Positions 2,232-37,728 of a stretch of 52,269 nucleotides of DNA are shown here, one piece after another. Each line of letters opens with the position of its first letter. Position 1 is the stretch's first letter. The notes beneath the pieces were generated by a model that did no database searches, was not told the DNA's origin, and saw nothing but the letters and a program-made list of their open reading frames with translations. The stretch comes from Acidobacteriota bacterium (GTDB lineage Bacteria; Acidobacteriota; DATKUA01; JAFGBY01). Location: assembly GCA_016932915.1 (NCBI GenBank), contig JAFGBY010000112.1:1-52269 (forward strand), in the 5' to 3' direction. Both the position numbers and the translations under genes were made by a program.

Positions 2232-3536
2232 ATGACGGAAAAAAATGAAACGAAGCAGGAGTTCAAAGATATTACCTCTGTGCTGAAAGAGCTGTCTATC
2301 GCAGTACCGGTTTCAGAAACGAAAACGGAAGAAGAAAAGATAATCCAGACCTTATCAAAGTCTGTAAGTATAAAAGGTTTTCGTAAGGGTAAAGTACCTC
2401 TTGAACTTATTAAAAACAAATACAAACAAAACATAGAAGAAGAATTACTGGAGAAAATTATCCAGGATAAAGTAAAAAACTTCTTCGAAAAATCAGATTT
2501 GATGCCAATTTCAACACCAAGCGTAAAAGAATTGGATTATAGCCTGGGCAATCCACTCTCCTTCACAGTGGAGTTTGAGATCAGACCTGAGCTGGATATC
2601 CAGGGTTATAAAGATATAAAAGTCGATATTGAGAAAATTAAAGTTTCAAATAAAGAAGTTGATGAAGAAATTGAAAATCTCCGCAAGCGAGCCGCGCAAC
2701 TTGACCCCGTCGAGGGAAGAGGAGTTATTGCAGGTGATTTATTGACGATGAGCGGTACTTTCACGGAATCCCACGGTGACCACTCTCATACACATGAAAT
2801 CGGCAGAAGGAATTATCCTATGCCTGATCAGAAGAGTGAATTTTCCAATTTTGATAAACAAATTGAAGGAATGACCAAGGACGATGAAAAATCCTTCGAA
2901 ATTGAAGTCGATAATGAACGGCTTGGTAAGAGTCTTAAAGGTAAACATATCGAGTTCAATGTGAAAATCGAAGAAATACATACTGTCCAGCTTCCTGAAG
3001 TCGATGATGAATTCGCAAAAAGCCTTGGAGAATTCGAAGACCTGAAAACCCTGAAAGAAGAAATTAAAAACTCACTGATTGAACTAAAAAAATCGGAAGA
3101 ACGAAGAAAAGCGGGAGACACTCTTCTTGATAAAGTGATAGATAAAAACGAATTTGAGATCCCAAAGGCGTATATTGAGGATGAGATAAACAATATAATA
3201 AATTATAAAGCAACACAGCTTCTTAATATGGGTATCAATCTCAGGCATAACCCGATTGATTGGGAAAAAATGAGAGAAGATGTCCGCGAAGATGCTTCAA
3301 AAAACGTTGCGAGAATGATGACCTTGATTAATATTGCTGACAAAGAAGAGATCAAGGTAGATGAGAAGGAAGTCGAAGAGAAGGTAAAAGACATTGCTGA
3401 TCAACGAAAAGTCAGCAATACGAAATTACTTGCCGATTTTAAGAAATCTGGTGAGTATGACCGGATAAAGACCGATATTTTGTTTACTAAAACAGTTGAT
3501 TTTCTCTTTGAAATTAACCATATTAAAATTGGATAA
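2232..3536 (+). CDS. tig: trigger factor, ribosome-associated chaperone
   Basis: Trigger factor binds at the ribosome exit tunnel and shields nascent chains. The 434-residue length is normal for the family. The ribosome-docking signature GFRKGKVP is at about residues 55-62. A divergent FKBP-type domain occupies about 150-245, followed by the helical C-terminal chaperone domain. The FKBP region contains an unusual histidine cluster (His181, 184, 186, 188), which is not a standard trigger factor feature and hints at metal binding or simply drift. The gene starts at ATG with AGAGGAA just upstream. It is followed after 5 bases by the ClpP-family gene, the classic tig-clpP-clpX order. Identity is firm; whether the isomerase domain is active is unclear because it is divergent. 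Confidence 0.95.
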   Translation: MTEKNETKQEFKDITSVLKELSIAVPVSETKTEEEKIIQTLSKSVSIKGFRKGKVPLELIKNKYKQNIEEELLEKIIQDKVKNFFEKSDLMPISTPSVKELDYSLGNPLSFTVEFEIRPELDIQGYKDIKVDIEKIKVSNKEVDEEIENLRKRAAQLDPVEGRGVIAGDLLTMSGTFTESHGDHSHTHEIGRRNYPMPDQKSEFSNFDKQIEGMTKDDEKSFEIEVDNERLGKSLKGKHIEFNVKIEEIHTVQLPEVDDEFAKSLGEFEDLKTLKEEIKNSLIELKKSEERRKAGDTLLDKVIDKNEFEIPKAYIEDEINNIINYKATQLLNMGINLRHNPIDWEKMREDVREDASKNVARMMTLINIADKEEIKVDEKEVEEKVKDIADQRKVSNTKLLADFKKSGEYDRIKTDILFTKTVDFLFEINHIKIG

Positions 3537-3541
3537 ATCTT

Positions 3542-4126
3542 ATGACTTTAGTTCCAATAGTTGTTGAAAATGACGGCAGAGCAGAGCGGTCCTACGATAT
3601 ATTTTCTAGGCTGTTAAAAGACCGTATAGTGATGCTTGGCGATGAGCTTGAAAGCAGACTGGCAAATCTTATTGTTGCCCAGATGTTGTATCTTGAAGCG
3701 GAAGATCCTGAAAAGGAGATCTCAATATATGTTAATTGTCCCGCTGGTGATATAAGCGCTGGATTAGCGATTTATGATACAATGAAACTGATTAAGCCTG
3801 ATATCCGTACATTATGTTATGGAGAGGCTTCCGAGATAGCTTCCCTAATTGTGGCAGCAGGAACAAAAGGAAAAAGATTTGCGCTTCCTCATTCAAGGTT
3901 TACAATGTATCAACCAACTGGAAAGCTAAATGGACAGGCAACCGATATAGATATCCAGGCAAGGGAGCTCATCAGGAGAAGGAACGAAATCATTAAAATA
4001 TTGTCAGAAAATACTAACCAGCCGATAGGTCAGTTAGAAGTCGATACGGAACGTCAGATGATAATGGATGCGCAAGCTGCGAAACAATACGGGCTGATTG
4101 ACGAAATATTGAAAGAAAGAAAATAA
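3542..4126 (+). CDS. ClpP-family protein lacking the catalytic triad (ClpR-like)
   Basis: This 194-residue protein aligns along its whole length with ClpP and has the length of a mature ClpP subunit, with no gap or frameshift. In standard numbering the active residues are all replaced: the serine of GQAASM is Glu98 (local GEASEIAS), the histidine of HQPLGG is Tyr123 (MYQPTG), and the aspartate of ERD is Gln172 (TERQMIMDA). The oxyanion loop reads NCPAGDISAG instead of NxPGGxVxAG. It should fold as a ClpP ring subunit but not hydrolyse peptides, like cyanobacterial and plastid ClpR. It sits between tig (5 bases) and clpX (24 bases), where active clpP normally lies. It could form mixed rings with an active ClpP encoded elsewhere. 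Family is certain; inactivity is inferred from the substitutions. Confidence 0.9.
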   Translation: MTLVPIVVENDGRAERSYDIFSRLLKDRIVMLGDELESRLANLIVAQMLYLEAEDPEKEISIYVNCPAGDISAGLAIYDTMKLIKPDIRTLCYGEASEIASLIVAAGTKGKRFALPHSRFTMYQPTGKLNGQATDIDIQARELIRRRNEIIKILSENTNQPIGQLEVDTERQMIMDAQAAKQYGLIDEILKERK

Positions 4127-4150: not shown

Positions 4151-5395
4151 ATGGTTAAGACAAACGAAGGATTTAACGCTCTTAAATGTTCTTTCTGTAA
4201 TAAAAGCCAGAAGGAAGTTAAGAAGCTTATCGCTGGACCGAATGTTTACATATGCGATGAGTGTGTAGAAATCTGCAATGAGATAATTACAGAAGAGCGT
4301 TTACAGGAAAAATCCAAAGCCAAACTTGGCATCCCAAAACCGGAAGAGATCAAAGAGTTCCTTGATAAGTATGTTGTTGGCCAGGAACAAGCAAAAAAGA
4401 AAATATCCGTCGCGGTTTATAATCATTATAAAAGAGTGGAATTTTATGATGAGAAAACAGATGACGTTGAGCTGAATAAAAGTAATATCCTTCTTATTGG
4501 GCCCACTGGAACGGGAAAAACTTTGATAGCAAGGACACTTGCAAAATGCCTGAAAGTCCCGTTTGCTATTGTGGATGCCACAACTCTTACAGAGGCTGGA
4601 TATGTCGGAGAGGATGTTGAGAATATAATCCTCAAACTTTTCCAGGCATCCGGGTTTGATCTCGAAAAAACCCAGAAGGGTATCATTTATATCGATGAAA
4701 TCGATAAAATCAGTAAAAAAGATGAGAATCCATCAATTACCCGCGATGTTTCAGGTGAAGGAGTTCAGCAAGCTCTGCTGAAAATACTTGAAGGTACTGT
4801 CGCTAATGTTCCTCCACAGGGAGGCAGAAAACATCCGCACCAGGAATTCTACCAGATAGATACTACTAATATTCTCTTTATTGGTGGTGGAGCTTTTATC
4901 GGACTTGATAAGATAATCAAGAAACGAATCGGCGCGCGGACTATGGGATTTAACTCTGAGAAAGAGGATATGAAAAGCATCGATGATATAGAAATCTTGA
5001 AGATGGCTGAACCTCAGGATCTAATCAGGTTCGGCTTGATACCGGAATTTGTCGGGCGGTTGCCCATCATCGGCACACTTGAAAACCTCAGCCGTGAAGC
5101 GCTGCTTACGATTCTGTCTAAACCAAAGAATGCGCTCATCAAACAGTACCAGAAGCTCTTTGATTTTGAAGGAGTGAAGTTGAATTTTTCTGAAGATGCC
5201 CTTGAGGAAATAACAGCCCTCGCGCTTGAAAGGAAAATCGGCGCTAGGGGATTAAGGGCCATCATGGAAGATTTCATGCTTGATATCATGTATGATTTAC
5301 CTTCTCAGAACGATATTAAGGAATGTGTGATTGATAAAGACGTAGTAAAGAAGGCAAAGGAGCCGATGATTGTCCGCGAGAAAAAAGCGGGCTAA
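4151..5395 (+). CDS. clpX: ATP-dependent unfoldase ClpX
   Basis: ClpX recognises tagged substrates, unfolds them and threads them into the Clp peptidase. The 414 residues show the N-terminal zinc-binding domain with two CxxC pairs (CSFC and CDEC), Walker A GPTGTGKT at 117-124, Walker B IIYIDEID near 177-184, the GYVGEDVE pore-loop motif, and the sensor and [13 protein letters not shown] region. The docking loop that normally reads IGF/LGF is Met265-Gly-Phe, so contact with a ClpP-type ring seems preserved. That matters because the ClpP-family neighbour lacks catalytic residues. It is co-directional with tig upstream and lon downstream. Nothing looks truncated. Confidence 0.97.
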
Positions 5396-5440
5396 TCCTT
5401 GCAGAAATTTCACTAGCAGCATTTGAACAAGGATACTATG

Positions 5441-7837
5441 ATGTCAGAGAAAACCGAAATATATCAAAATTTACCGCTCCTGCCTATGCGGGACCTGGTA
5501 ATTTTTCCAAATATGATGATTCCTTTTTTTGTAGGAAGGGATAAATCTATCAAAGCCCTGGACTACGCACTTGAAAAAGACCAGAAAATCTTCTTAGCCA
5601 CTCAGAAAGATGCGCTGGTTAATGAGCCGGAAAAAGAAGATATTTACCTCATTGGTGTAGTCTCAAAAATTATTCAAAGTTTAAAAATGCCCAATGGGAA
5701 CATTAAAGTCCTTATTGAAGGTTTACACAGGGCAAAGATTATAGATTTTATAGACCAGAACGATTATCTGGAAGTTGTTACGGAAAAGCTAACTCCCAGG
5801 CCTGAGCTCTCGGATGTTCCTTCTCATCTTACTCGTGATGTCACCGAGAAACTGGAGCAATACTTAAGGCTAAGCCAGAATATTAATTCCGATGTGTTTG
5901 TTTCCACTTTAAAAGAGACTAACCCGGATAAGCTTGCGGATTCCATCGCTGCTCACTTAAATATTGAAATCAAACAGAAACAAGAACTTCTGGAAACGGT
6001 CAATCCTAAACTTCGTATGACCAAACTCCAGACGATTCTCGATATTGAAATCGAAAAGGTGATGCTGGACGAGAAGATCAACGAGGAAGTCAAAAAGCAG
6101 ATGGAAAAAGCTCAGCGGGAGTATTACCTGAATGAAAAGATAAAAGCTATCCATAAAGAACTAGGCAGGACGAAAGAAAAGGTTGATGAGATTGACCAGC
6201 TGAGGGAGAAGATAGATGAAAGCGGTATGCCCGATAAGGTCAAGGAAAAGGCAGAACAGGAACTTGAAAAGCTGGAATCCATGCCTCCGATGTCTGCAGA
6301 AGCAACAGTTTCAAGAGGTTACCTTGATTGGCTGATCTCAATGCCATGGAATAAAAGGTCTCGCGAGAAACGGGATCTTATTAAAGCGGAAAAGATATTA
6401 AACGATGATCATTATGCCCTCGAAAAACCGAAGGAGAGAATTCTTGAATTCCTGGCCGTTCGGCAGCTTGTAAAGAAACAGAAAGGTTCAATACTCTGTT
6501 TTGTCGGGGCTCCCGGTGTTGGTAAAACATCGCTCGCAAGTTCGATTGCCAGAGCCACAGGCAGAAAATTCGTACGGCTTTCTCTAGGAGGAGTCCGCGA
6601 TGAAGCTGAGATACGCGGCCACAGGAGAACATATATAGGTGCGTTCCCTGGCAGGATTATACAGATGATCAAACGTGCAGAAACCAAGAATCCCGTTTTC
6701 CTTTTGGATGAAGTTGATAAAATGAGCACGGATTTCCGTGGAGACCCGTCTTCAGCCCTGTTGGAAGTACTGGATCCGGAACAAAATCATTCCTTCCTGG
6801 ATCATTACCTGGATGTTGAATTTGATTTGTCGGAGGTAATGTTCATTGCTACCGCGAACGTTCTGCACCCGATACCAAGGGCTTTACAGGACAGGATGGA
6901 AGTTATCCATCTTTCCGGTTATACCTTAGCGGAAAAGATTGAAATAGCAGAACGGCACTTGATTTCAAAGCAGTTAAAAGAACACGGCCTTCATAAAAAG
7001 AAAATCGTTTTCACACGTGAAGCGATTAAATATATCATTGAGAAATATACACGCGAGGCGGGGGTTAGAAACCTCGAGCGGTCTATTGCTTCCCTGTTAA
7101 GGAAGATGGCTCGCCAGTATGTTACTAAGAGCATTAAAAAGACTGTAAAACTGACACCGGAGAAAATAGAGGAATATCTGGGTATTCCGAAATATCGAAA
7201 AGCCGAAAAGGAACAAAAGGCAGAAGTTGGGCTCGTTATGGGTGTTGCTTGGACCGAAATGGGTGGGGAATTGCTTGCGACAGAATGTACATTGATGCCG
7301 GGGAAAAGCAACCTGAAGCTTACAGGCCAGCTTGGAGACGTTATGCAGGAATCTGCGCAAGCTGCTATGAGCTATGTCCGTTCCAATTCACTGCAATTTG
7401 GTATCCCGTATGATATCTTTAAAAAGAATGATGTCCATATTCACGTTCCTGAAGGAGCAATCCCAAAAGATGGTCCATCAGCAGGGATTACTATGGCGAC
7501 TGCATTGGTATCCGCATTTACCAGGGTGCCTGTAAGACACGATATAGCCATGACGGGGGAAATCACTCTGCGAGGAAAAGTACTTCCTATTGGTGGATTA
7601 AAAGAAAAAGTCCTTGCGGCTCACAGGGCAGGGATCATGGAGATAATTATCCCCGCTGAGAATGAAAAAAATATCGAGGATATACCGCCAGAGATTTTAA
7701 AAGAGATAAAACTTCATAAGGTTGAAAACGTCAACGAGGTGATTAAGCTTGCCCTGACCGAGGAATTAAAGCCTATTCAAGATGTGAAAAAACTGGATCA
7801 TGATGACAACAATGTAACAGATGGAATAGCGCATTAA
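5441..7837 (+). CDS. lon: Lon ATP-dependent serine protease
   Basis: Lon degrades misfolded and regulatory proteins in the cytoplasm. The protein has an N-terminal substrate-binding domain (opening [15 protein letters not shown]), a helical linker, an AAA+ module with Walker A GAPGVGKT at about 356-363 and Walker [10 protein letters not shown], and a C-terminal protease domain. The catalytic dyad is intact: Ser680 in KDGPSAG and Lys723 in GGLKEK, one residue off E. coli Ser679/Lys722. I chose the ATG at 5441 because AAGGA lies 7 nt upstream. ATG 5438 and TTG 5423 are in-frame alternatives that add 1 or 6 residues. It lies 45 bases after clpX. With the neighbouring ClpP-like protein apparently dead, Lon is the only clearly active energy-dependent protease here. 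Confidence 0.97.
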
Positions 7838-25858: not shown

Positions 25859-28800
25859 CTAACTAATCTCCCAGATTTTTTTATACATTTTCTTTTTTGT
25901 CTCAAGAATACTTTTAAACCTGTATATGAACCGGTAGAGTATCGGTATGAAAGTTATTGTAAACAATGCGGAACCGAGTAAACCGCCGATAGCAGCAAGC
26001 GACAGGCTGAACCAGATATCGTTTCGCGTTCTCTCAGCAAATAGCGCAAGGGGCAGTAGCCCGCCAACAGTAGTAACGGTTGTAAGCACAATGGGCCGAA
26101 GCCTCGAAGTGGCTCCTTCGATGAGGATTTTATCCATTGATTTATACTGCGCGCCCAGCGTGTTAAAACGGTCGATCATTATTATCGGGTTATTGACTAC
26201 CATTCCGCAGAGTAATATTACACCGATATAAGCGGAGGAATCAAATACGCCTGATGTCCATGAAAAGATCAGGAATACTCCGATTAGCGATAATGGGATT
26301 GTTAAAAAGATGATAAACGGTTGCAGGAAAGATTCATAAAGTGATGCCAATATCATAAAAATTGCCAGGAGTGAAACAAGGAGCACTTTCCCGATTTCCT
26401 TTTCTTCTTCCTCAGTCATCATGAATCTATCATCTTTTGATTTTGTGTAACCGGGTGGTAACTCGATGCTGTTATAGATATTATCGAAATATCTTTCCCC
26501 GGCTTTATATGGCCCCCTGAATTCCCAGCCAAGTGTCATCTGGTATTGCTGGTTTTCTCGGTAGATAGATTCGGATTGCTGTCTCCAGGTTGGCGTAAAA
26601 AAGTTTCCAAGCTGCCTGATACCTTTATCAGAGAAAACATCTTTTTTATTCTCCAGGTCTTCCAGCTGGCGTGCTCCGGAGAAGGATTCTTCGATCGTGA
26701 TATCGTAATTTTTTTCTCCCATCCGCATTGAAGAGCATGGCTGTGAGTTTTGAAGGAAAATGGAGATATTACTTACTATTTCATTTGGAGTAATTCCTTC
26801 TGAGCAAATCCTTGCCATATCAAGCTTCATCACAAGTTCATCAATGGAACCGTAATATCTATATTGGCCCGTTGTTGCATTTACTTCCCTGACCCGGAGA
26901 TTCTTTAAAATACGCTTGGAAATATTATCCGCAATTTCTCTCAATTCGGTGAGGTTATATCCTTTTATTGTCAGCCTGCTGCTGCCCCCGCTGCTTCCGC
27001 GCATAAATCCACCAGCGCTGAGACTGTCACCGAAACCGGATACCCAGATGTGTACTCCCGCATGCTGGAGAGCGAGGTTGTTGACGTCTTCCCTGTACTG
27101 GTATGGGAGGGCGCTGTTTAATGCTTCATCTGTGAATAGTGCTTGTACGTATGCATTTTCTGAGTCAACCGAAGTGGATACTGTTTTAACTCCTTGGGCT
27201 CCGTTCAGGACTTTTTCGAATTTCCTGGCGATTTCATCCGCACGTGATATTTCTGAACCCTCTGGAAGATTGATACTTATTCTAAGTGGCTCGTCGCTCT
27301 GCATCGAAAACCATCCGCCCCTATCAACAGTTTCGAATTCCTTAAAAGAATAATATCCTATTAAAAGAATAAGTATCACGACTATGTAGGAATACTTGAG
27401 TGTCCAGGCCATTATTTTTTGATAAAACCTGACGGATTTTTTGATTCTTTTTATCTTTTTGATTCTAAGGAAAAGGGTGGACACAGCCGGAATAAAAGTA
27501 AAACTTACCAGGATTGAACTGATAAGAGAATAAATCATCGCCAGGGCAAGCGGGAGGTAATATTCTTTCAACCTTCCGCTGAAAAGTACAAACGGGATAA
27601 ATACCGCAAGGGTAGTGGATGTGGAGGCAAGGACAGGGCGTATCATCTCCAGTGTACCTTCCTTGATGGCTTTTATTCGCTCCTCTCCTTTTTCCATTTT
27701 CTGATAGATGTTTTCGAGTACAACTATGGAATTATCGATAACAATTCCCAGCCCGATTGCCAGGGCGGCAAGAGTGATAAAGTTTACCGATACATCGGTG
27801 AAATATAGAAAGTTCAGTGTGATTGCTTCTGTAAGGAGTACGGATAAGATAAGAATAAAAAATGATTTTGTATCCCGCATAAGCAACAGGAGGAGAATAA
27901 CGACGATTGCTATTATCAGGAGAATTCTTTCCCCAAGTTTCCTGATCTCCTGCAACATATCGGCTCCCGAATCGATTGGGATGAAATAATCAAGTTTATA
28001 AGGGAGATTAGAGAGAATTGCATCGAGCCGTGTCTTAATCTCACCTGATAGTTTTACAGCGTTTGATTGGGAATCCCGCGAAATGCGGATAGATACCTCA
28101 GGTTTTCCGTTAGTTCTCGAAAGAGAATATACTTTTTTACCGTGCAAAGAGATATCTGAAATTTCTCCGAGTTTTATTCTGTTTCCATCTCCGAAGGGAA
28201 TTTCCAGGTTTTCGAGGTCGGATAATTTTGTAAGCTTGTTTCCCTCTTGAATAAATAATTCATCGTCTCCGGATCTTATTAATCCCAGGGTTCTAATTTT
28301 ATTTGTGGATGATATTTCTCTTGCTATTGTACCTATGGAAATATCCAGTTGCTGGAGCACATTTTTATGCAGCTTGATAAGTACCTCTTCTTCGCGGCCG
28401 CCAAGAACATCAACATCAGACACACCTTCAATAGCCAGGAGAGGGTTTTTTATATTTTCGGTAACGATATTCCTGATCTCGGCAAGGCTGTAATCACCGA
28501 TTACCGTGACCGACATAAATGTATCGGTACGGCTATTCCTGGACCTATTACGAGGTCGATACCGCTGAATCTGTGGCCGGCCGCATTCCTCAGGTAATTC
28601 GTTTATAATCGAGCGGAGACGCTCTTTTAATTCCATCCTCACAAATTCGATATCTGCGTTATCGGAAAATTCTACAGTGATTAAGCTGTTTCCTTTACTT
28701 GATGTCGACTTGATGTCCTGTACATATGAAACCTGGGAGACCTGTTCTTCGAGGAGTGATGTTACTTCCTGGGCTACGAGTTCGGGGCTTGCCCCCGTCC

Positions 28801-28939
28801 ATGAGGTGCTGATATTAAGCGTCAGGGAATCTTCCGAGGGATTTACTTCTATGGGTATGTTCATCACGGAAAATACTGACGGCAGGACGACGGCAAGCAG
28901 AACCAGAATAACGGCTTTTGGTCTTTTAATCTGGATCAT
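25859..28939 (-). CDS. RND efflux permease, second of a pair
   Basis: A 1026-residue inner-membrane proton-driven transporter of the AcrB/MdtC type with twelve expected helices and two large periplasmic loops. The TM4 signature is LGIVIDNSIVVLEN, with one aspartate where AcrB has Asp407-Asp408. The second-half equivalent is VVNNPIIMIDR. It is one base from the preceding permease and directly abuts the adaptor gene. Two dissimilar permeases with one adaptor recall heteromeric MdtBC, so the working pump may be a mixed trimer. Substrate unknown. Confidence 0.92.
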   Translation of the reverse strand: MIQIKRPKAVILVLLAVVLPSVFSVMNIPIEVNPSEDSLTLNISTSWTGASPELVAQEVTSLLEEQVSQVSYVQDIKSTSSKGNSLITVEFSDNADIEFVRMELKERLRSIINELPEECGRPQIQRYRPRNRSRNSRTDTFMSVTVIGDYSLAEIRNIVTENIKNPLLAIEGVSDVDVLGGREEEVLIKLHKNVLQQLDISIGTIAREISSTNKIRTLGLIRSGDDELFIQEGNKLTKLSDLENLEIPFGDGNRIKLGEISDISLHGKKVYSLSRTNGKPEVSIRISRDSQSNAVKLSGEIKTRLDAILSNLPYKLDYFIPIDSGADMLQEIRKLGERILLIIAIVVILLLLLMRDTKSFFILILSVLLTEAITLNFLYFTDVSVNFITLAALAIGLGIVIDNSIVVLENIYQKMEKGEERIKAIKEGTLEMIRPVLASTSTTLAVFIPFVLFSGRLKEYYLPLALAMIYSLISSILVSFTFIPAVSTLFLRIKKIKRIKKSVRFYQKIMAWTLKYSYIVVILILLIGYYSFKEFETVDRGGWFSMQSDEPLRISINLPEGSEISRADEIARKFEKVLNGAQGVKTVSTSVDSENAYVQALFTDEALNSALPYQYREDVNNLALQHAGVHIWVSGFGDSLSAGGFMRGSSGGSSRLTIKGYNLTELREIADNISKRILKNLRVREVNATTGQYRYYGSIDELVMKLDMARICSEGITPNEIVSNISIFLQNSQPCSSMRMGEKNYDITIEESFSGARQLEDLENKKDVFSDKGIRQLGNFFTPTWRQQSESIYRENQQYQMTLGWEFRGPYKAGERYFDNIYNSIELPPGYTKSKDDRFMMTEEEEKEIGKVLLVSLLAIFMILASLYESFLQPFIIFLTIPLSLIGVFLIFSWTSGVFDSSAYIGVILLCGMVVNNPIIMIDRFNTLGAQYKSMDKILIEGATSRLRPIVLTTVTTVGGLLPLALFAERTRNDIWFSLSLAAIGGLLGSALFTITFIPILYRFIYRFKSILETKKKMYKKIWEIS

Positions 28940-28940
28940 A

Positions 28941-31900
28941 TTATTTTCCGGTTTTTACTTGTTCTTTTTCGTTTTTTTTGTTGAAAATTTCATACATCAC
29001 AGGGATTAAGAATATCGTCAGTATTGTACCGATAGATTCACCACCGATTATAACCCATGCCAGCGGCCTGTAGATTTCGGATCCTTCTCCCGGGATTATC
29101 GCCATCGGCAGCAGGCCGAATACAGTTGTAACCGTAGTCATGAGGATCGGCCGGAGCCTCTGCAAGCCGGCAGTGATGATCGATTCTCTTAATGCCATAC
29201 CTTCGTCGCGGAGCTGGTTGATACGGTCTACTTTCACAATCGCATCGTTGACGATTATCCCTGTGAGAACTATAAAACCTATGATTGAGATGATATTCAT
29301 GCTCTGAGAAAAAATGAGCAGTGTAAATACTGTCCCGATAAATCCGAGCGGGATTGTGCAGATGATGATAAAAGGATTCTTAAGCGATTCGAATTGCGCT
29401 GCGATTATCATGTAGATCAGGAATGCCGAGAGCAGTAACGCCAGAGAGAGAGACTTGAAGGAATCCTTCATCTCCTCATATTCTCCTGATACATTGATGT
29501 TCACATCATCCGGGAGGTCTATTTTAGTTCTGATCCGGCTTATGAATGCCCGTGCCTTGTTCAGTGAACCGGTCAGATCCATGCTGATTTCGATAAAGGG
29601 TTTGCTTTCATCGCTATGAATAGCCGAAAGGTATTCATCTTCCTTAAAACTGCACAGGGATTCCAATGTGAATTTTCTTCCGGTTTTATCCGAATAAACG
29701 ATGTTTTTTAATTCAGTGATATTTTTATAATCCTCTAGTCCCGTTTTTAGGCGGATAGTTATCTTTTCTCCGACTTTTTTAATACTCAGTGGCACTTCGC
29801 CCTGGAGGTTACTTACAATAAAATTGGAAATATCATTTTTATCCAATCCATTGATGAAGATGATATCCTCTTTGAATTCAGCTTTCAGGATTTTTTCCGT
29901 TTCGTAATTTGTGATTTCAGGATTTTCAAAAAGCCCGGTTTCATTTTTTAATGTTGTGAGCACTTTCAGTGCTGCCTTATATGCTTCATCAGTGTCATGT
30001 GCATATACTTTAATGGAAAACCTGCTTTTCAGTATCATAATAAGTTGTTCAAGGATGGAGTATTCGGGCTCGATTGTGTAGCTGAAACCTTCCAGGTGTT
30101 TTATCTCTTTCAGTAATACAGGTAAATCATCTACTGTATAACCTTTTACTAGCTGGATTTTAAAGATAAGGTTTTTTCCGCTTTCGGAGTTTTTGTCCAT
30201 CACGGTGAAGATGTTTTTTACGGCTTTCGAATTCTGGAAATCTTTCTCTATTTTTGCTGCTTCCGATTCGATTTTTTCGGCTACCAGGTTATCCGGCAAG
30301 TTCAGTACTATTCTGTATATACCGGTATCTGTCTCAGGAATGAGCCTTGTTTCCATATTGAAGGTGATGAACAGTGCAGCCAGGAAGAGTCCCAATATAG
30401 TCAGTAAAACAACAGATTTTTTCTCCAGCGCTTTTATTTCAAGGTTATGATAGAGGTCTTCAATTTTCTTATAAAAATCCTGGAATCCATTTCCTGCGGC
30501 AGAAAAAAGAGAGGAAAGCAATGATATTATTTTCTTAACCGGTGGGATGATTATCTGTACGATAAAATCCGTGATGGACTCAAGGATGAAGAATATGAAT
30601 AATAGGAATATTTTTATAATTTCGGAGAAAATGTAAAACGCGGTATGCAATAGGAAAATGATTACAATATAAATTTTCCATATTTTAAAATTATGAAAAC
30701 GGCCGGTTATTTGCTTCCAGGAATCTGCTTTAAAAAGGCTGATAGATTCGGCGTACCTTTTCCACTGTTCCTTGAATCCGAACTTGTCTTTTTTATCCGA
30801 AGTTCGTTTGGACATCAGTTTCATTGAAAGGAGTGGGATAATTGTCAGGGAAGTGAGCAAGGAGATCAGGAGTGCGAAAGTTATAGAAATTGCTTGATCC
30901 CTGAAGAGTGCAGCTGCGACTCCCCTCACATATACTATCGGCAGGAATACAGCGACTGTAGTTAAAGTAGATGCTGTAATAGCCATACCTATTTCCGAAG
31001 TTCCTTTGAAAGCAGCATCGTATGCCTTTGTTTTACCTGTTTTATACCGGAAGATATTTTCAATTGTAATAATGGCATTATCGACAAGCATACCTACAGC
31101 AAGGGCCAGCCCTCCAAGAGTCATCAGGTTTATATTTACTCCTGCCAGGTAAAATGCCGTAAACGTGCCGATGATCGATACTGGAATAGAAATACCTATA
31201 ATCAGTGATACCCTGAAGTTATTGAGGAACAGGAAAAGTACAATAAATGCAAGGATGCCGCCTATTATAAGCGACTGGATAACCGAATTGATTGCTCCTG
31301 AGATAAAATCATCTTGCCTGTTGATGATCTCCACATTAAAATTCGGGTAGGTTTTATTAAGCTCTTCAACAACCGTTTCAGCTTCTTTTGAAACCAGCAT
31401 AGTATTGCGGCCGTATTCCTTGTAGATATCAATCGAGATTATTTCCTTGCCGTTCCATCTTGAAAAATTATTCAGTTTTACAATGCGTTCCTGTATGTCT
31501 GCGATATTCGATAGGGGTACAATCAAACCGTTTTCAAGTTTTATTTCGAGAGCTTTTAAATCAGATATATCCTGCAATGTCCATTCAATAATGATGGAAT
31601 AACGGTATTCTCCTTTTTTAATTGTTCCGCTTGACCTGGTTTCAAGCCGCTTAATTATGCTGCTTATTTCATTTGGTTTAATGTTGTACAGCTCCACCAT
31701 TTCCGGTATAAGGCTGATCTGTATTTCTTTTCTCCCGATGCTGTTCACCTCAGCCGAAGCTATCCCTCTTTGCTGTTCAAGCCGTGGTTTGATTATGAAT
31801 CTTGCGGTATCTTGAAGTTCAGCCAGTGAACTCGTAGTTGAAGAGACACTGAGAGTCATTATTGGGCTTGTTGCAGGATTTAACGGAGTGATTATCGGCG

Positions 31901-32273
31901 TTTCTGCTTTTTCAGGAAATCTATCGATGACCTTGTCGACTTCCTCCCGGATATTGAGGACGGCGTATTTTATATCGGCGCCCCAGTGAAAATTGACAGT
32001 GACTGTTGATAGTTCTTTCTCGGAAATCGAACTGATTCTCCTGATATTCGGTATACTTTTCAACCCTGATACAAGGATGGTAGATATTTCTTCTTCAACG
32101 TCACTGGCGGAAGCATCCGGGTATTCGGTTGTTATTGTAACAGTCGGAAATTCGATATCAGGAAGCAGGTCAATTGAAAGCTCCTTGTAAGAAGCAAAGC
32201 CGAAAATAATAATTGCCGAAACCAGCATAAGCGTGGTCACCGGCCTGTTCAGTGAAAATTGAGTGACCTTCAT
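28941..32273 (-). CDS. RND efflux permease, first of a pair, with an insertion between TM6 and TM7
   Basis: A 1110-residue RND permease, about 80 longer than most. The N-terminal FSLNRPVTTLMLV, TM4 VGMLVDNAIITIEN and late TM10 GIIVNDAIVKVDR regions fit the family. The TM6-TM7 linker (about residues 488-616) is roughly 130 residues instead of about 40. It contains two strongly hydrophobic stretches at about 530-577, possibly extra membrane or re-entrant helices. There is no strong ribosome site before the ATG. First in a three-gene operon with the second permease and the adaptor. Confidence 0.92.
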   Translation of the reverse strand: MKVTQFSLNRPVTTLMLVSAIIIFGFASYKELSIDLLPDIEFPTVTITTEYPDASASDVEEEISTILVSGLKSIPNIRRISSISEKELSTVTVNFHWGADIKYAVLNIREEVDKVIDRFPEKAETPIITPLNPATSPIMTLSVSSTTSSLAELQDTARFIIKPRLEQQRGIASAEVNSIGRKEIQISLIPEMVELYNIKPNEISSIIKRLETRSSGTIKKGEYRYSIIIEWTLQDISDLKALEIKLENGLIVPLSNIADIQERIVKLNNFSRWNGKEIISIDIYKEYGRNTMLVSKEAETVVEELNKTYPNFNVEIINRQDDFISGAINSVIQSLIIGGILAFIVLFLFLNNFRVSLIIGISIPVSIIGTFTAFYLAGVNINLMTLGGLALAVGMLVDNAIITIENIFRYKTGKTKAYDAAFKGTSEIGMAITASTLTTVAVFLPIVYVRGVAAALFRDQAISITFALLISLLTSLTIIPLLSMKLMSKRTSDKKDKFGFKEQWKRYAESISLFKADSWKQITGRFHNFKIWKIYIVIIFLLHTAFYIFSEIIKIFLLFIFFILESITDFIVQIIIPPVKKIISLLSSLFSAAGNGFQDFYKKIEDLYHNLEIKALEKKSVVLLTILGLFLAALFITFNMETRLIPETDTGIYRIVLNLPDNLVAEKIESEAAKIEKDFQNSKAVKNIFTVMDKNSESGKNLIFKIQLVKGYTVDDLPVLLKEIKHLEGFSYTIEPEYSILEQLIMILKSRFSIKVYAHDTDEAYKAALKVLTTLKNETGLFENPEITNYETEKILKAEFKEDIIFINGLDKNDISNFIVSNLQGEVPLSIKKVGEKITIRLKTGLEDYKNITELKNIVYSDKTGRKFTLESLCSFKEDEYLSAIHSDESKPFIEISMDLTGSLNKARAFISRIRTKIDLPDDVNINVSGEYEEMKDSFKSLSLALLLSAFLIYMIIAAQFESLKNPFIIICTIPLGFIGTVFTLLIFSQSMNIISIIGFIVLTGIIVNDAIVKVDRINQLRDEGMALRESIITAGLQRLRPILMTTVTTVFGLLPMAIIPGEGSEIYRPLAWVIIGGESIGTILTIFLIPVMYEIFNKKNEKEQVKTGK

Positions 32274-34494: not shown

Positions 34495-37400
34495 TTACTT
34501 TATTTTAATTGGATCAGCCGGTTTAGGTGGTAGTTTAACTGGCTCTTCCTGGATCTTCTTCATGATGATTTCGATTGCTTTATCCATCTGAGGATCCCTG
34601 TTTTTAACCTGGTCTACCGGGTCAGTGTCGATGATTATATCAGGTGTCACTCCTGTATTTTCCATCCACCATTCACCTTTCAGGTTGTATGATCCGGTTT
34701 GAGGTACGATTTCATAACCTCCATCCATCAACGGGTGAACCTGGTAATAACCTACAACTCCTCCCCATGTCCTGGTGCCGATGACCGGCCCAAGTTTATA
34801 CTGCTGGAAGAAATTGGGGAAGTTATCCCCGTCCGATGCAGCGTAAAGGTTAGTGAGCATTACAAGGTGCCCTGCGAATGCTGCATTCGGATAAGTTCCT
34901 CCACCGAAGAGGCGATTGTAGCGCATACCCACTACGATTCTTCTCAATCTCTCGAGAATCATCTGGCTTACGAATCCGCCGCCGTTGTAACGGTCATCAA
35001 CGATTATTCCTTCCTTGTCAATCTGGGCATACCATGTTTTTACAAACTGGTTGAGGCCATGGCCTCCCATGTCGGGAACATGTACGTATCCGATCCTGCC
35101 GTTTGTCTTTTTCTGAACATAATCGTAGTTTTCCTGTACCCAGGTGAGGTAGGCGATTTCGCCTTCATCCGCGATAGGTTTAACGCTCACTGTCCATGCG
35201 CCTTTTTCTTCCGGCTTGTCGTTCAGTTTAAGTACAACTATTGTTTTTAGTGTCTTTTGCAGAAGGCGATAGGGATTTTCCGGGTATTTCAGCTTTTTGC
35301 CATTAATTTCAAGGATGTAATCACCCGCTTTTGCTTTCACCCCTACTTCTACAAGAGGAGATCTTGCTGCATCGTTCCAGTTTTCGCCTTTGTAGATTTT
35401 TACTATTTTGTAGTAACCATTTTCGCCAACTTCAAATTCCGCTCCCAGCAGCCCAACGTCCGCTGTCTGGAGTTCGGGCAGGTCACCACCGCCTGTATAA
35501 GAGTGGCTTGTACAGAGTTCACCGATGGTTTCACCAATCAGGTAAGTCAGGTCACGCCTGTGCGACAGCTGGCCTACCAGGGTAGAATATCTTTTAAAGA
35601 TACCATCCCAGTCAACTCCATGCAGATTGGAGATATAGTATGTTGCTTTAGGTAATCTCCAAGCTTCAGTGAAAATCTGTTTCCATTCTGTTATTGGGTC
35701 TACAAGGGTTTCCAGCCCGGAGATATCAACAAGGCCTTCACCGGTATTGATTTTATCAGTTTTTGCTGGGGCAATGCCCATTGTCGTTCCCTTTTGCCAG
35801 AGGATATTTTTCCCATCCGGTGAAAGACCATAATTTCTTATTCCTTCAAGGATAAGTGTTTCTTTTTTCTTCTCCAGATCGAACGCATAGAGATTGCGAG
35901 CATTATTCTCTGCCTTGATATAGTAGAGAATACCAGGGATCGCGCTGAGGCCGAATACCTGGCTAGGAGTGACCGGCAATGCAGCTACCCTCATGCCAAG
36001 GTTTTTAATATCTATCTTGATATCCTTGATTTCCTTTTTATCTGCATCTTTCTTGTCGTCTTTCTTTTCATTCTTGAGTACCACTTCGTCGCTCTCAGGT
36101 TTGAATAGAGAATCGGAACCATCAGAAAGAGTAGCGACATAAACTCGATCTAAATTGTCATAATGGAAATTGGATTCAAAATTGCTGAACTGAGGGCTGA
36201 AATCTCTTGAAGAGATAAAGAAGAGGTATTTACCATCGATATCGAATACCGGTTCTGTTTCGTTTGTTGCCCGGCTGGTAACCTGATGGATTATAGCATC
36301 TTCCAGGTTATAAAGGTAAATCGATGAGAAAACCTGATCATGTTGTTTGCTGTACGTGAGCCATTTACTGTCCGGGGACCACATATAGTCCCTTATACGT
36401 CCGACTTCAGCAGTATCGACTTTGGTTATCTTCTTAGTTTTTACATCGATGTAATAGAAGTCGTGCATCTCACCCCAGAAAGCGATTTTGTTTCCATCCG
36501 GTGACCAGGAAGGATTCCTTAGAATCTGGTCTCCACCGGATGTCAACTGTGTTGTCGATTCACCCATGGCATCGGTTATATAGAGTTCTTCTTTTCCGGT
36601 TTTATCTGAGATATAAGCGATCCATTTTCCATCCGGGCTCCAGTTCACGTCCCTTTCCCTTGCTCCTGTGCTTTCTGAAAGGTTGCGGGTGTTGCCTTTT
36701 TCTGCTGGAACTGTAAACAGCTCACCACGCGCCGTGAGTGCTACTCTTTTTGCTCCAGGAGCGAGAGATGAAGAATCAACTCTGGACGCTAGTTTCATGT
36801 AATAAGGCCTGAGGCTTGCCCTGTCGTACTTGATATTGAATGTGAGTGGCGCAATTTTTTCATCAGAATAAGCCATTTTGTAAAGTTTCCCGCCCATCTC
36901 AAAGATAATGGCATCCGGCCCATGGCCAGGCCACTTAATATCCCAGTCTTTATAATCGGTAACCTGGGTAATCTCCTTGGATGTGGTGTTGTATTTATAG
37001 AGGTTGGATTTTCCAGTTTTATCCGCCACGAAATAGATATTATCCCCATGCCATATCGGATGATGTTCTGTGCCTATCCAATCGGTTATTTTTTCAATTT
37101 TGTCTACATTATAATCATAAATCCAGATATTCTGGGCCATTCCGCCTTTATATCTTTTCCAGGTACGGAAATCACGGTATACACGGTTAAGTGCAATCTT
37201 TTTCCCATCTGGAGAGAAAGACATCGAACCGCCTTCCGCAAATGGCATCGGCTCAGGAAATCCGCCGTTAATGCTTATTTTATATAACCTACCGACAAAC
37301 GCATCCCAGAAACCTTTAAAACCACGGAAAATTATATATTTCCCGTCCGGGGTCCAATCCATGACATGTTTGTCATACCCGAATCTGTCCGGCAGCTCAG

Positions 37401-37728
37401 TTGTGGGGTAGTAGGTCAATTGTTTGGGTTCTCCACCATCCACAGGGATCAGATATACCTGCCAGTACCCGTCGTACTGACCGGTAAAAGCGATCCATTT
37501 CCCATCTGGCGAGAATTTAGGAAAGTACTCCACGCCCGGGTGGGATGTAAGCCTTTTAATGTTTGTACCATCTACATTTGCAGTCCAGATATCCCCGGCG
37601 TATGAAAATGCGACTGTATCTTTATAGATATCAGGATACCTGAGCATAAGTGTCTCATTTTCCGCTGTAGCATAAAGCGGCAGCAGCAGAGATACTAAAA
37701 GAATCAGAAAAAGTTTTTTCTTTAACAT
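34495..37728 (-). CDS. Tricorn-type protease homolog, exported
   Basis: A 1077-residue serine protease of peptidase family S41B. A signal peptide (cleavage near ATA-EN, residues 20-24) implies a periplasmic location, unlike archaeal cytosolic Tricorn. The N-terminal half is two beta-propellers built from repeats such as SPDGKWIAF and SPDGNKIAF. A lysine-rich linker (about 550-570) follows, then the C1 domain, a PDZ domain and the C-terminal peptidase core. The catalytic residues fall at the Thermoplasma positions or 4 residues off: His742 (SHSYTGGGD), Ser965-Asp966 (ASDGDNFPNF) and Glu1023 (MENTGVTPD). AGGAGG precedes ATG. It probably trims peptides or clears misfolded envelope proteins. Monocistronic by spacing and its terminator. 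Confidence 0.94.
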   Translation of the reverse strand: MLKKKLFLILLVSLLLPLYATAENETLMLRYPDIYKDTVAFSYAGDIWTANVDGTNIKRLTSHPGVEYFPKFSPDGKWIAFTGQYDGYWQVYLIPVDGGEPKQLTYYPTTELPDRFGYDKHVMDWTPDGKYIIFRGFKGFWDAFVGRLYKISINGGFPEPMPFAEGGSMSFSPDGKKIALNRVYRDFRTWKRYKGGMAQNIWIYDYNVDKIEKITDWIGTEHHPIWHGDNIYFVADKTGKSNLYKYNTTSKEITQVTDYKDWDIKWPGHGPDAIIFEMGGKLYKMAYSDEKIAPLTFNIKYDRASLRPYYMKLASRVDSSSLAPGAKRVALTARGELFTVPAEKGNTRNLSESTGARERDVNWSPDGKWIAYISDKTGKEELYITDAMGESTTQLTSGGDQILRNPSWSPDGNKIAFWGEMHDFYYIDVKTKKITKVDTAEVGRIRDYMWSPDSKWLTYSKQHDQVFSSIYLYNLEDAIIHQVTSRATNETEPVFDIDGKYLFFISSRDFSPQFSNFESNFHYDNLDRVYVATLSDGSDSLFKPESDEVVLKNEKKDDKKDADKKEIKDIKIDIKNLGMRVAALPVTPSQVFGLSAIPGILYYIKAENNARNLYAFDLEKKKETLILEGIRNYGLSPDGKNILWQKGTTMGIAPAKTDKINTGEGLVDISGLETLVDPITEWKQIFTEAWRLPKATYYISNLHGVDWDGIFKRYSTLVGQLSHRRDLTYLIGETIGELCTSHSYTGGGDLPELQTADVGLLGAEFEVGENGYYKIVKIYKGENWNDAARSPLVEVGVKAKAGDYILEINGKKLKYPENPYRLLQKTLKTIVVLKLNDKPEEKGAWTVSVKPIADEGEIAYLTWVQENYDYVQKKTNGRIGYVHVPDMGGHGLNQFVKTWYAQIDKEGIIVDDRYNGGGFVSQMILERLRRIVVGMRYNRLFGGGTYPNAAFAGHLVMLTNLYAASDGDNFPNFFQQYKLGPVIGTRTWGGVVGYYQVHPLMDGGYEIVPQTGSYNLKGEWWMENTGVTPDIIIDTDPVDQVKNRDPQMDKAIEIIMKKIQEEPVKLPPKPADPIKIK

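Follow-up and report, generated by a model that had tools for sequence, protein, structure and literature searches.

Organization of the locus

The window, that is, the whole stretch of 52,269 bases analyzed, is one contig which carries on its forward strand the genes tig (positions 2232–3536), clpP (3542–4126), clpX (4151–5395) and lon (5423–7837). Trigger factor was recognized by TIGR00115 with 302.9 bits (cutoff 180.2), ClpX by NF003745 with 654.8 bits and Lon by TIGR00763 with 964.8 bits. A preliminary description of this DNA had considered the surroundings and the length of the clpP gene as normal, and in fact the spacers are exactly those it gave, 5 bp after tig and 24 bp before clpX, and the gene is a full-length open reading frame encoding 194 amino acids. 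The clpX gene is intact, and its product is strongly constrained, with one change across 165 sites conserved at 95% or more. Its docking loop MGF lies precisely where it had been placed, at residues 265–267 (4943–4951, forward strand), and is the commonest form of this loop (42 of 86 related ClpX proteins).

The Lon protein has the active-site Ser and Lys, and retains the DGPSAG and KEK motifs. The idea that it could be relaxed, based on 40 changes at conserved sites, was discarded because two members of the phylum likewise display 43 and 58 changes; such high counts are due to a comparison panel composed mostly of delta-proteobacteria. On the reverse strand, the window also encodes a protein of 1077 aa whose domains are of the tricorn type (PD40, Tricorn_C1, PDZ and S41 peptidase; 34495–37728) and, at 25859–32273, two adjoining AcrB-family efflux transporters of 1026 and 1110 aa.

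Loss of the catalytic residues of ClpP

The product of the clpP gene was aligned without gaps, over its entire length, to canonical ClpPs and to ClpPs of solved structure. This alignment bears out the earlier claim that the whole catalytic triad is missing: the position of Ser98 is occupied by Glu (codon GAG, 3833–3835), that of His123 by Tyr (TAT, 3908–3910) and that of Asp172 by Gln (CAG, 4055–4057), while the nearby Arg171 and Asp168 are retained. The PGG motif of the oxyanion loop (residues 67–69, 3740–3748) also reads PAG, as had been stated, by virtue of a G68A change (GCT, 3743–3745). Ser-His-Asp and PGG are both present in 110/110 other homologous loci of the alignment. The surroundings of residue 98 are further altered (Q95E, M99I, A101S and L104V), which had gone unremarked in the preliminary description.

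Concerning family assignment, the protein was matched by the Pfam model PF00574 with 231.8 bits (E 7e-69), and scored above the cutoff of NF001368 (267 bits versus 249) but below that of the clpP equivalog TIGR00493 (259.8 bits versus 308.6). An AlphaFold2 model based on 55 sequences gave a pLDDT of 86 and a TM score of about 0.9 against ClpP crystal structures. Of the features that define a ClpP (MEROPS S14), the window protein thus displays the fold, as predicted, and the family-level similarity, and it lacks the triad and the GG of the oxyanion loop (E/Y/Q and PAG). By all the criteria known for ClpP, the protein is predicted to be non-catalytic, and its sequence supports this prediction.

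An origin of these changes in a chimeric assembly or in consensus errors has to be considered, as the draft is fragmented and a close relative for comparison was not found among the genomes compared. Nevertheless, the GAG, TAT, CAG and GCT codons imply that several base changes would be needed from Ser, His, Asp and Gly codons, with the frame remaining fully open. The operon is intact, the contig agrees in composition with further contigs of its bin (4-mer r 0.93–0.98, GC 0.40–0.41), and the ClpX that it encodes groups within the same phylum. An artefact seems, on these grounds, hardly credible. The codon-position composition of the gene is ordinary.

Conservation and evolutionary rate

In a second set of ClpPs, Ser-His-Asp was found in 83/83 rows, although this set was chosen as non-degenerate and five other rows of the tree set lack Ser98 and/or His123. 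At positions conserved at 90% or more, the window ClpP is altered in 16 of 83, while no other sequence of the set is altered in more than 5. Of the sites conserved at 99% or more, 15 lie near the active site, and 6 of these are altered (G68A, S98E, M99I, L104V, H123Y and D172Q), as against none of the 35 lying elsewhere (Fisher p 3e-4). Near and far were defined here from the distance along the sequence to the triad and to PGG rather than from coordinates, and after the changes were known.

In matched trees, the end branch of the window ClpP was 1.31, about threefold the second longest (0.43), whereas that of the window ClpX was an ordinary 0.45 and grouped with the set of the same phylum (98*). 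Removal of the active-site columns left a ClpP branch of 0.96, where the median was 0.11, which indicates faster evolution outside the active site too. The phylum is apparently Acidobacteriota, as one of its loci (L117) is identical to L070, on a contig deposited as Acidobacteria.

Relatives of the window protein are distant. No genome closer than the same phylum was found among the 60 nearest, nor was any same-class relative found among the genomes compared, and the best identity among the matches listed for 396 genomes of the phylum was 58%. A scan of viral contigs yielded a single distant, active ClpP, and the best 10 of 161 plasmid-borne relatives were all below 55% identity. A pattern scan of the 396 genomes for Tyr123 with a 5-residue handle gave two matches, the window gene and one in genome G016; of these, only the first can be assigned to a ClpP gene, the ClpP of G016 (L029) being Ser-His-Asp. 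An apparent loss of Ser98 in the ClpP of G043 was discarded, as it corresponds to an ambiguous base.

Retention of ring and handle residues and of most docking residues

The residues which we take, from general knowledge of ClpP structures, to form the ring and handle (D168, R171, Q132, A133, D135, I138, E142 and R145) are all present in the window ClpP. Concerning the docking site, assigned in the same manner, I29, L49, Y63 and L115 are retained, while two pocket positions are odd: L83 is usually F or Y, and Y93 is usually I, V, M or L. As judged from residue identities, the view that the window ClpP keeps the features of the ring and handle, and most of those for docking, is supported.

Clp components and other proteases in the assembly

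The assembly is the draft of a single genome, with 2.33 Mb in 178 contigs and 75.6% completeness. The search for a second clpP with intact Ser-His-Asp, which had been proposed as a check, found none in it, and not even a fragment was detected in this 75.6%-complete assembly, either with the Pfam model (E ≤ 0.01) or with an active ClpP of the phylum as the query (E ≤ 10). ClpS was not found in it either. A ClpC-like Hsp100, whose LGF loop lies at residue 666, is encoded on another contig (C91); it falls below the ClpA and ClpB equivalog cutoffs and was named ClpC from its architecture. Besides Lon, the assembly contains HslU/HslV, FtsH and ClpB, and a tmRNA with the tag ANSNELALAA.

These data bear on an explanation in which the window protein would be a ClpR-like subunit of a mixed core, with all the catalysis being performed by an active ClpP encoded in a portion of the genome missing from the assembly, and the dead copy providing structure and docking. 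The incompleteness of the assembly leaves room for such a partner, and described ClpR systems all pair with an active ClpP (PMC7966870). Against it count the failure of both searches to find a second ClpP and the rarity of such genes, since any second ClpP-like match occurs in only about 6% of 396 sampled genomes of the phylum. The probability that a partner exists was set at about 0.43, a personal estimate rather than a computed statistic, starting from a prior of about 0.75, guessed on the basis of the systems described, and from a chance of 0.25 that the gene had been missed.

Degenerate ClpPs and possible loss of ClpP elsewhere in the phylum

Family f83, with two genera represented, provides an in-phylum precedent for pairs of dead and active ClpPs. 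Three of its genomes (G322, G330 and G388) have a solitary dead second ClpP (L207, L206 and L204, respectively) with A98, Y123, Q95E and M99I, and with D172 and PGG kept, while their tig-clpP-clpX copy is Ser-His-Asp (in G388 it is split over two contig ends). A dead paralogue accompanying an active operon copy indicates that ClpR-like subunits exist outside the cyanobacterial/plastid lineage, apparently with an independent origin. This precedent speaks for the mixed core in the window organism, as does the ClpXP of Chlamydia, whose clpP genes are located apart from each other, but in f83 the active copy is the one in the operon. Weighing all this, a mixed core of the ClpR kind is a serious contender, though we hold it at somewhat less than an even chance.

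A sister grouping of the window ClpP with the f83 dead copies was not recovered in a tree with the active-site columns removed, but the test did not reject a common origin (p-AU 0.44). Other second ClpPs occur beside normal copies: in G109 (contig C244; L212/L232) with G98 and D123, and in G009 (C51; L224/L234) with S98 kept and H123S. It is worth noting that Gln10, in the N-terminal region, conserved at 95% or more in active copies, is altered in 6/6 degenerate ClpPs, being N in the window protein, T in L204, L206 and L207, E in L212 and R in L224.

A different chemistry can also be envisaged, in which Glu98 and Gln172, with Tyr123, would make up a new hydrolytic site within the chamber. The substituted residues are polar, and formally include the residue types of the glutamic peptidases, the eqolisin dyad being Glu plus Gln. 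However, Gly68 of the oxyanion loop and Met99 are changed as well, and the in-phylum dead paralogues sharing Y123 and E95 have Ala98 and Asp172, which argues against a conserved new site. So, this explanation is very improbable.

The four genomes of genus g55 (family f41; G071, G169, G215 and G271; 94–96% complete) gave no ClpP by protein search, and the Pfam model run against their long open reading frames yielded weak matches or none, so this genus may have lost ClpP. These 4/4 re-searched genomes, together with the long ClpP branch outside the active site, lend some credit to the view that ClpXP proteolysis is dispensable and that the window clpP is a relic decaying towards loss. Decay would nevertheless be difficult to reconcile with an intact reading frame, with changes that concentrate around the active site instead of being scattered, with retention of the 35/35 most conserved residues away from it, and with the conservation of the docking loops of both ClpX and ClpC. 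A relic is thus considered unlikely.

Interpretation

The explanation that we prefer, with a probability of roughly 0.7, is that the window gene encodes a maintained pseudoprotease, i.e. a ClpP subunit which, with its predicted ClpP fold, would form rings and dock ClpX and ClpC, but would be unable to cut peptide bonds. It is favored by the loss of the triad and of PGG against 110/110 loci, by the clustering of the changes and by the preservation of the MGF and LGF loops, while the odd L83 and Y93, and the fast evolution outside the active site, which would also fit a weakening constraint, count against it. We infer that the protein would assemble into heptameric rings, to which ClpX or ClpC would deliver the chains they unfold, although such a ring would have only dead sites of its own.

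Two sub-cases of the pseudoprotease can be distinguished. In the first, the second ring or the neighboring subunits would consist of an active ClpP absent from the assembly, as in a ClpR-like mixed core; in the second, the complex would have no peptidase, and the ring would be a platform for docking, gating or holding, with HslUV, Lon and FtsH carrying out the proteolysis. The odds between them seem nearly balanced, leaning slightly to the ring without peptidase. The fuller version of the latter, in which the dead ring is the sole ClpP and forms with ClpX and ClpC a non-proteolytic unfoldase or holding complex, while degradation proceeds via HslUV, Lon and FtsH, is advanced tentatively.

The preliminary description had proposed either a mixed Clp complex or a ClpX adaptor ring with no protease in this lineage. 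The proposal agrees with a predicted non-catalytic protein that keeps ring, handle and most docking features, but "ClpX adaptor" is too narrow, as the assembly also encodes a ClpC that has such a loop for docking. The mixed complex gains from the dead and active pairs elsewhere in the phylum and is weakened by the lack of a partner in the 75.6%-complete assembly. As to "no protease in this lineage", an assembly of that completeness in 178 contigs, with no same-class relative among the genomes compared, cannot carry the claim.

Comparison with known Clp systems

Relative to canonical ClpP (TIGR00493/NF001368), the window protein is alike in length, predicted fold, operon position, and ring and most docking residues, and differs in lacking the triad, in the altered oxyanion loop and in falling under the TIGR00493 equivalog cutoff. 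With the ClpR of cyanobacteria, plastids and apicoplasts, it shares being a ClpP homologue without Ser-His-Asp that retains the fold. However, it scores only 167.5 bits (cutoff 263) with NF009204, the single ClpR-like NCBIfam model considered, which we take to be that of cyanobacterial ClpR, and its best model is that of canonical ClpP; by model score, it is outside the cyanobacterial ClpR family. It also differs from ClpR in that it sits in tig-clpP-clpX, with no active partner in the 75.6%-complete assembly.

The f83 dead paralogues, also predicted to be non-catalytic, have in common with the window protein Q95E, M99I, H123Y and a changed Q10, but they differ in A98, D172, PGG, a longer handle and a solitary locus, whereas the window copy occupies the main operon. 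Listeria ClpP1 and Chlamydia ClpP1P2 form mixed cores with the labor divided between two subunits; both subunits are present in the described cores, while a partner of the window ClpP was not found in its assembly. ClpP2 of Chlamydia is presumably the clpX-linked copy. It is through ClpP2 that ClpX binds in Chlamydia ClpXP, made from genes at separate loci (PMC6773864). Mixed cores with ClpR have also been described (PMC7966870, PMC4673316), and in Arabidopsis the S164A variant of CLPP3 complements, a precedent for one subunit being able to do without its catalytic site (PMC6508832).

No description of a sole dead ClpP was found in the literature searched, which covered few subscription journals. 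The ClpR-type dead subunits described so far come from cyanobacteria, plastids and apicoplasts, and they always accompany an active ClpP. A dead copy in the main operon in another bacterial phylum, together with the similar dead paralogues in other families of that phylum, would allow the role of inactive Clp subunits to be tested in a lineage unrelated to these and, should there be no active partner, would mean that a Clp ring can be selected for something besides proteolysis.
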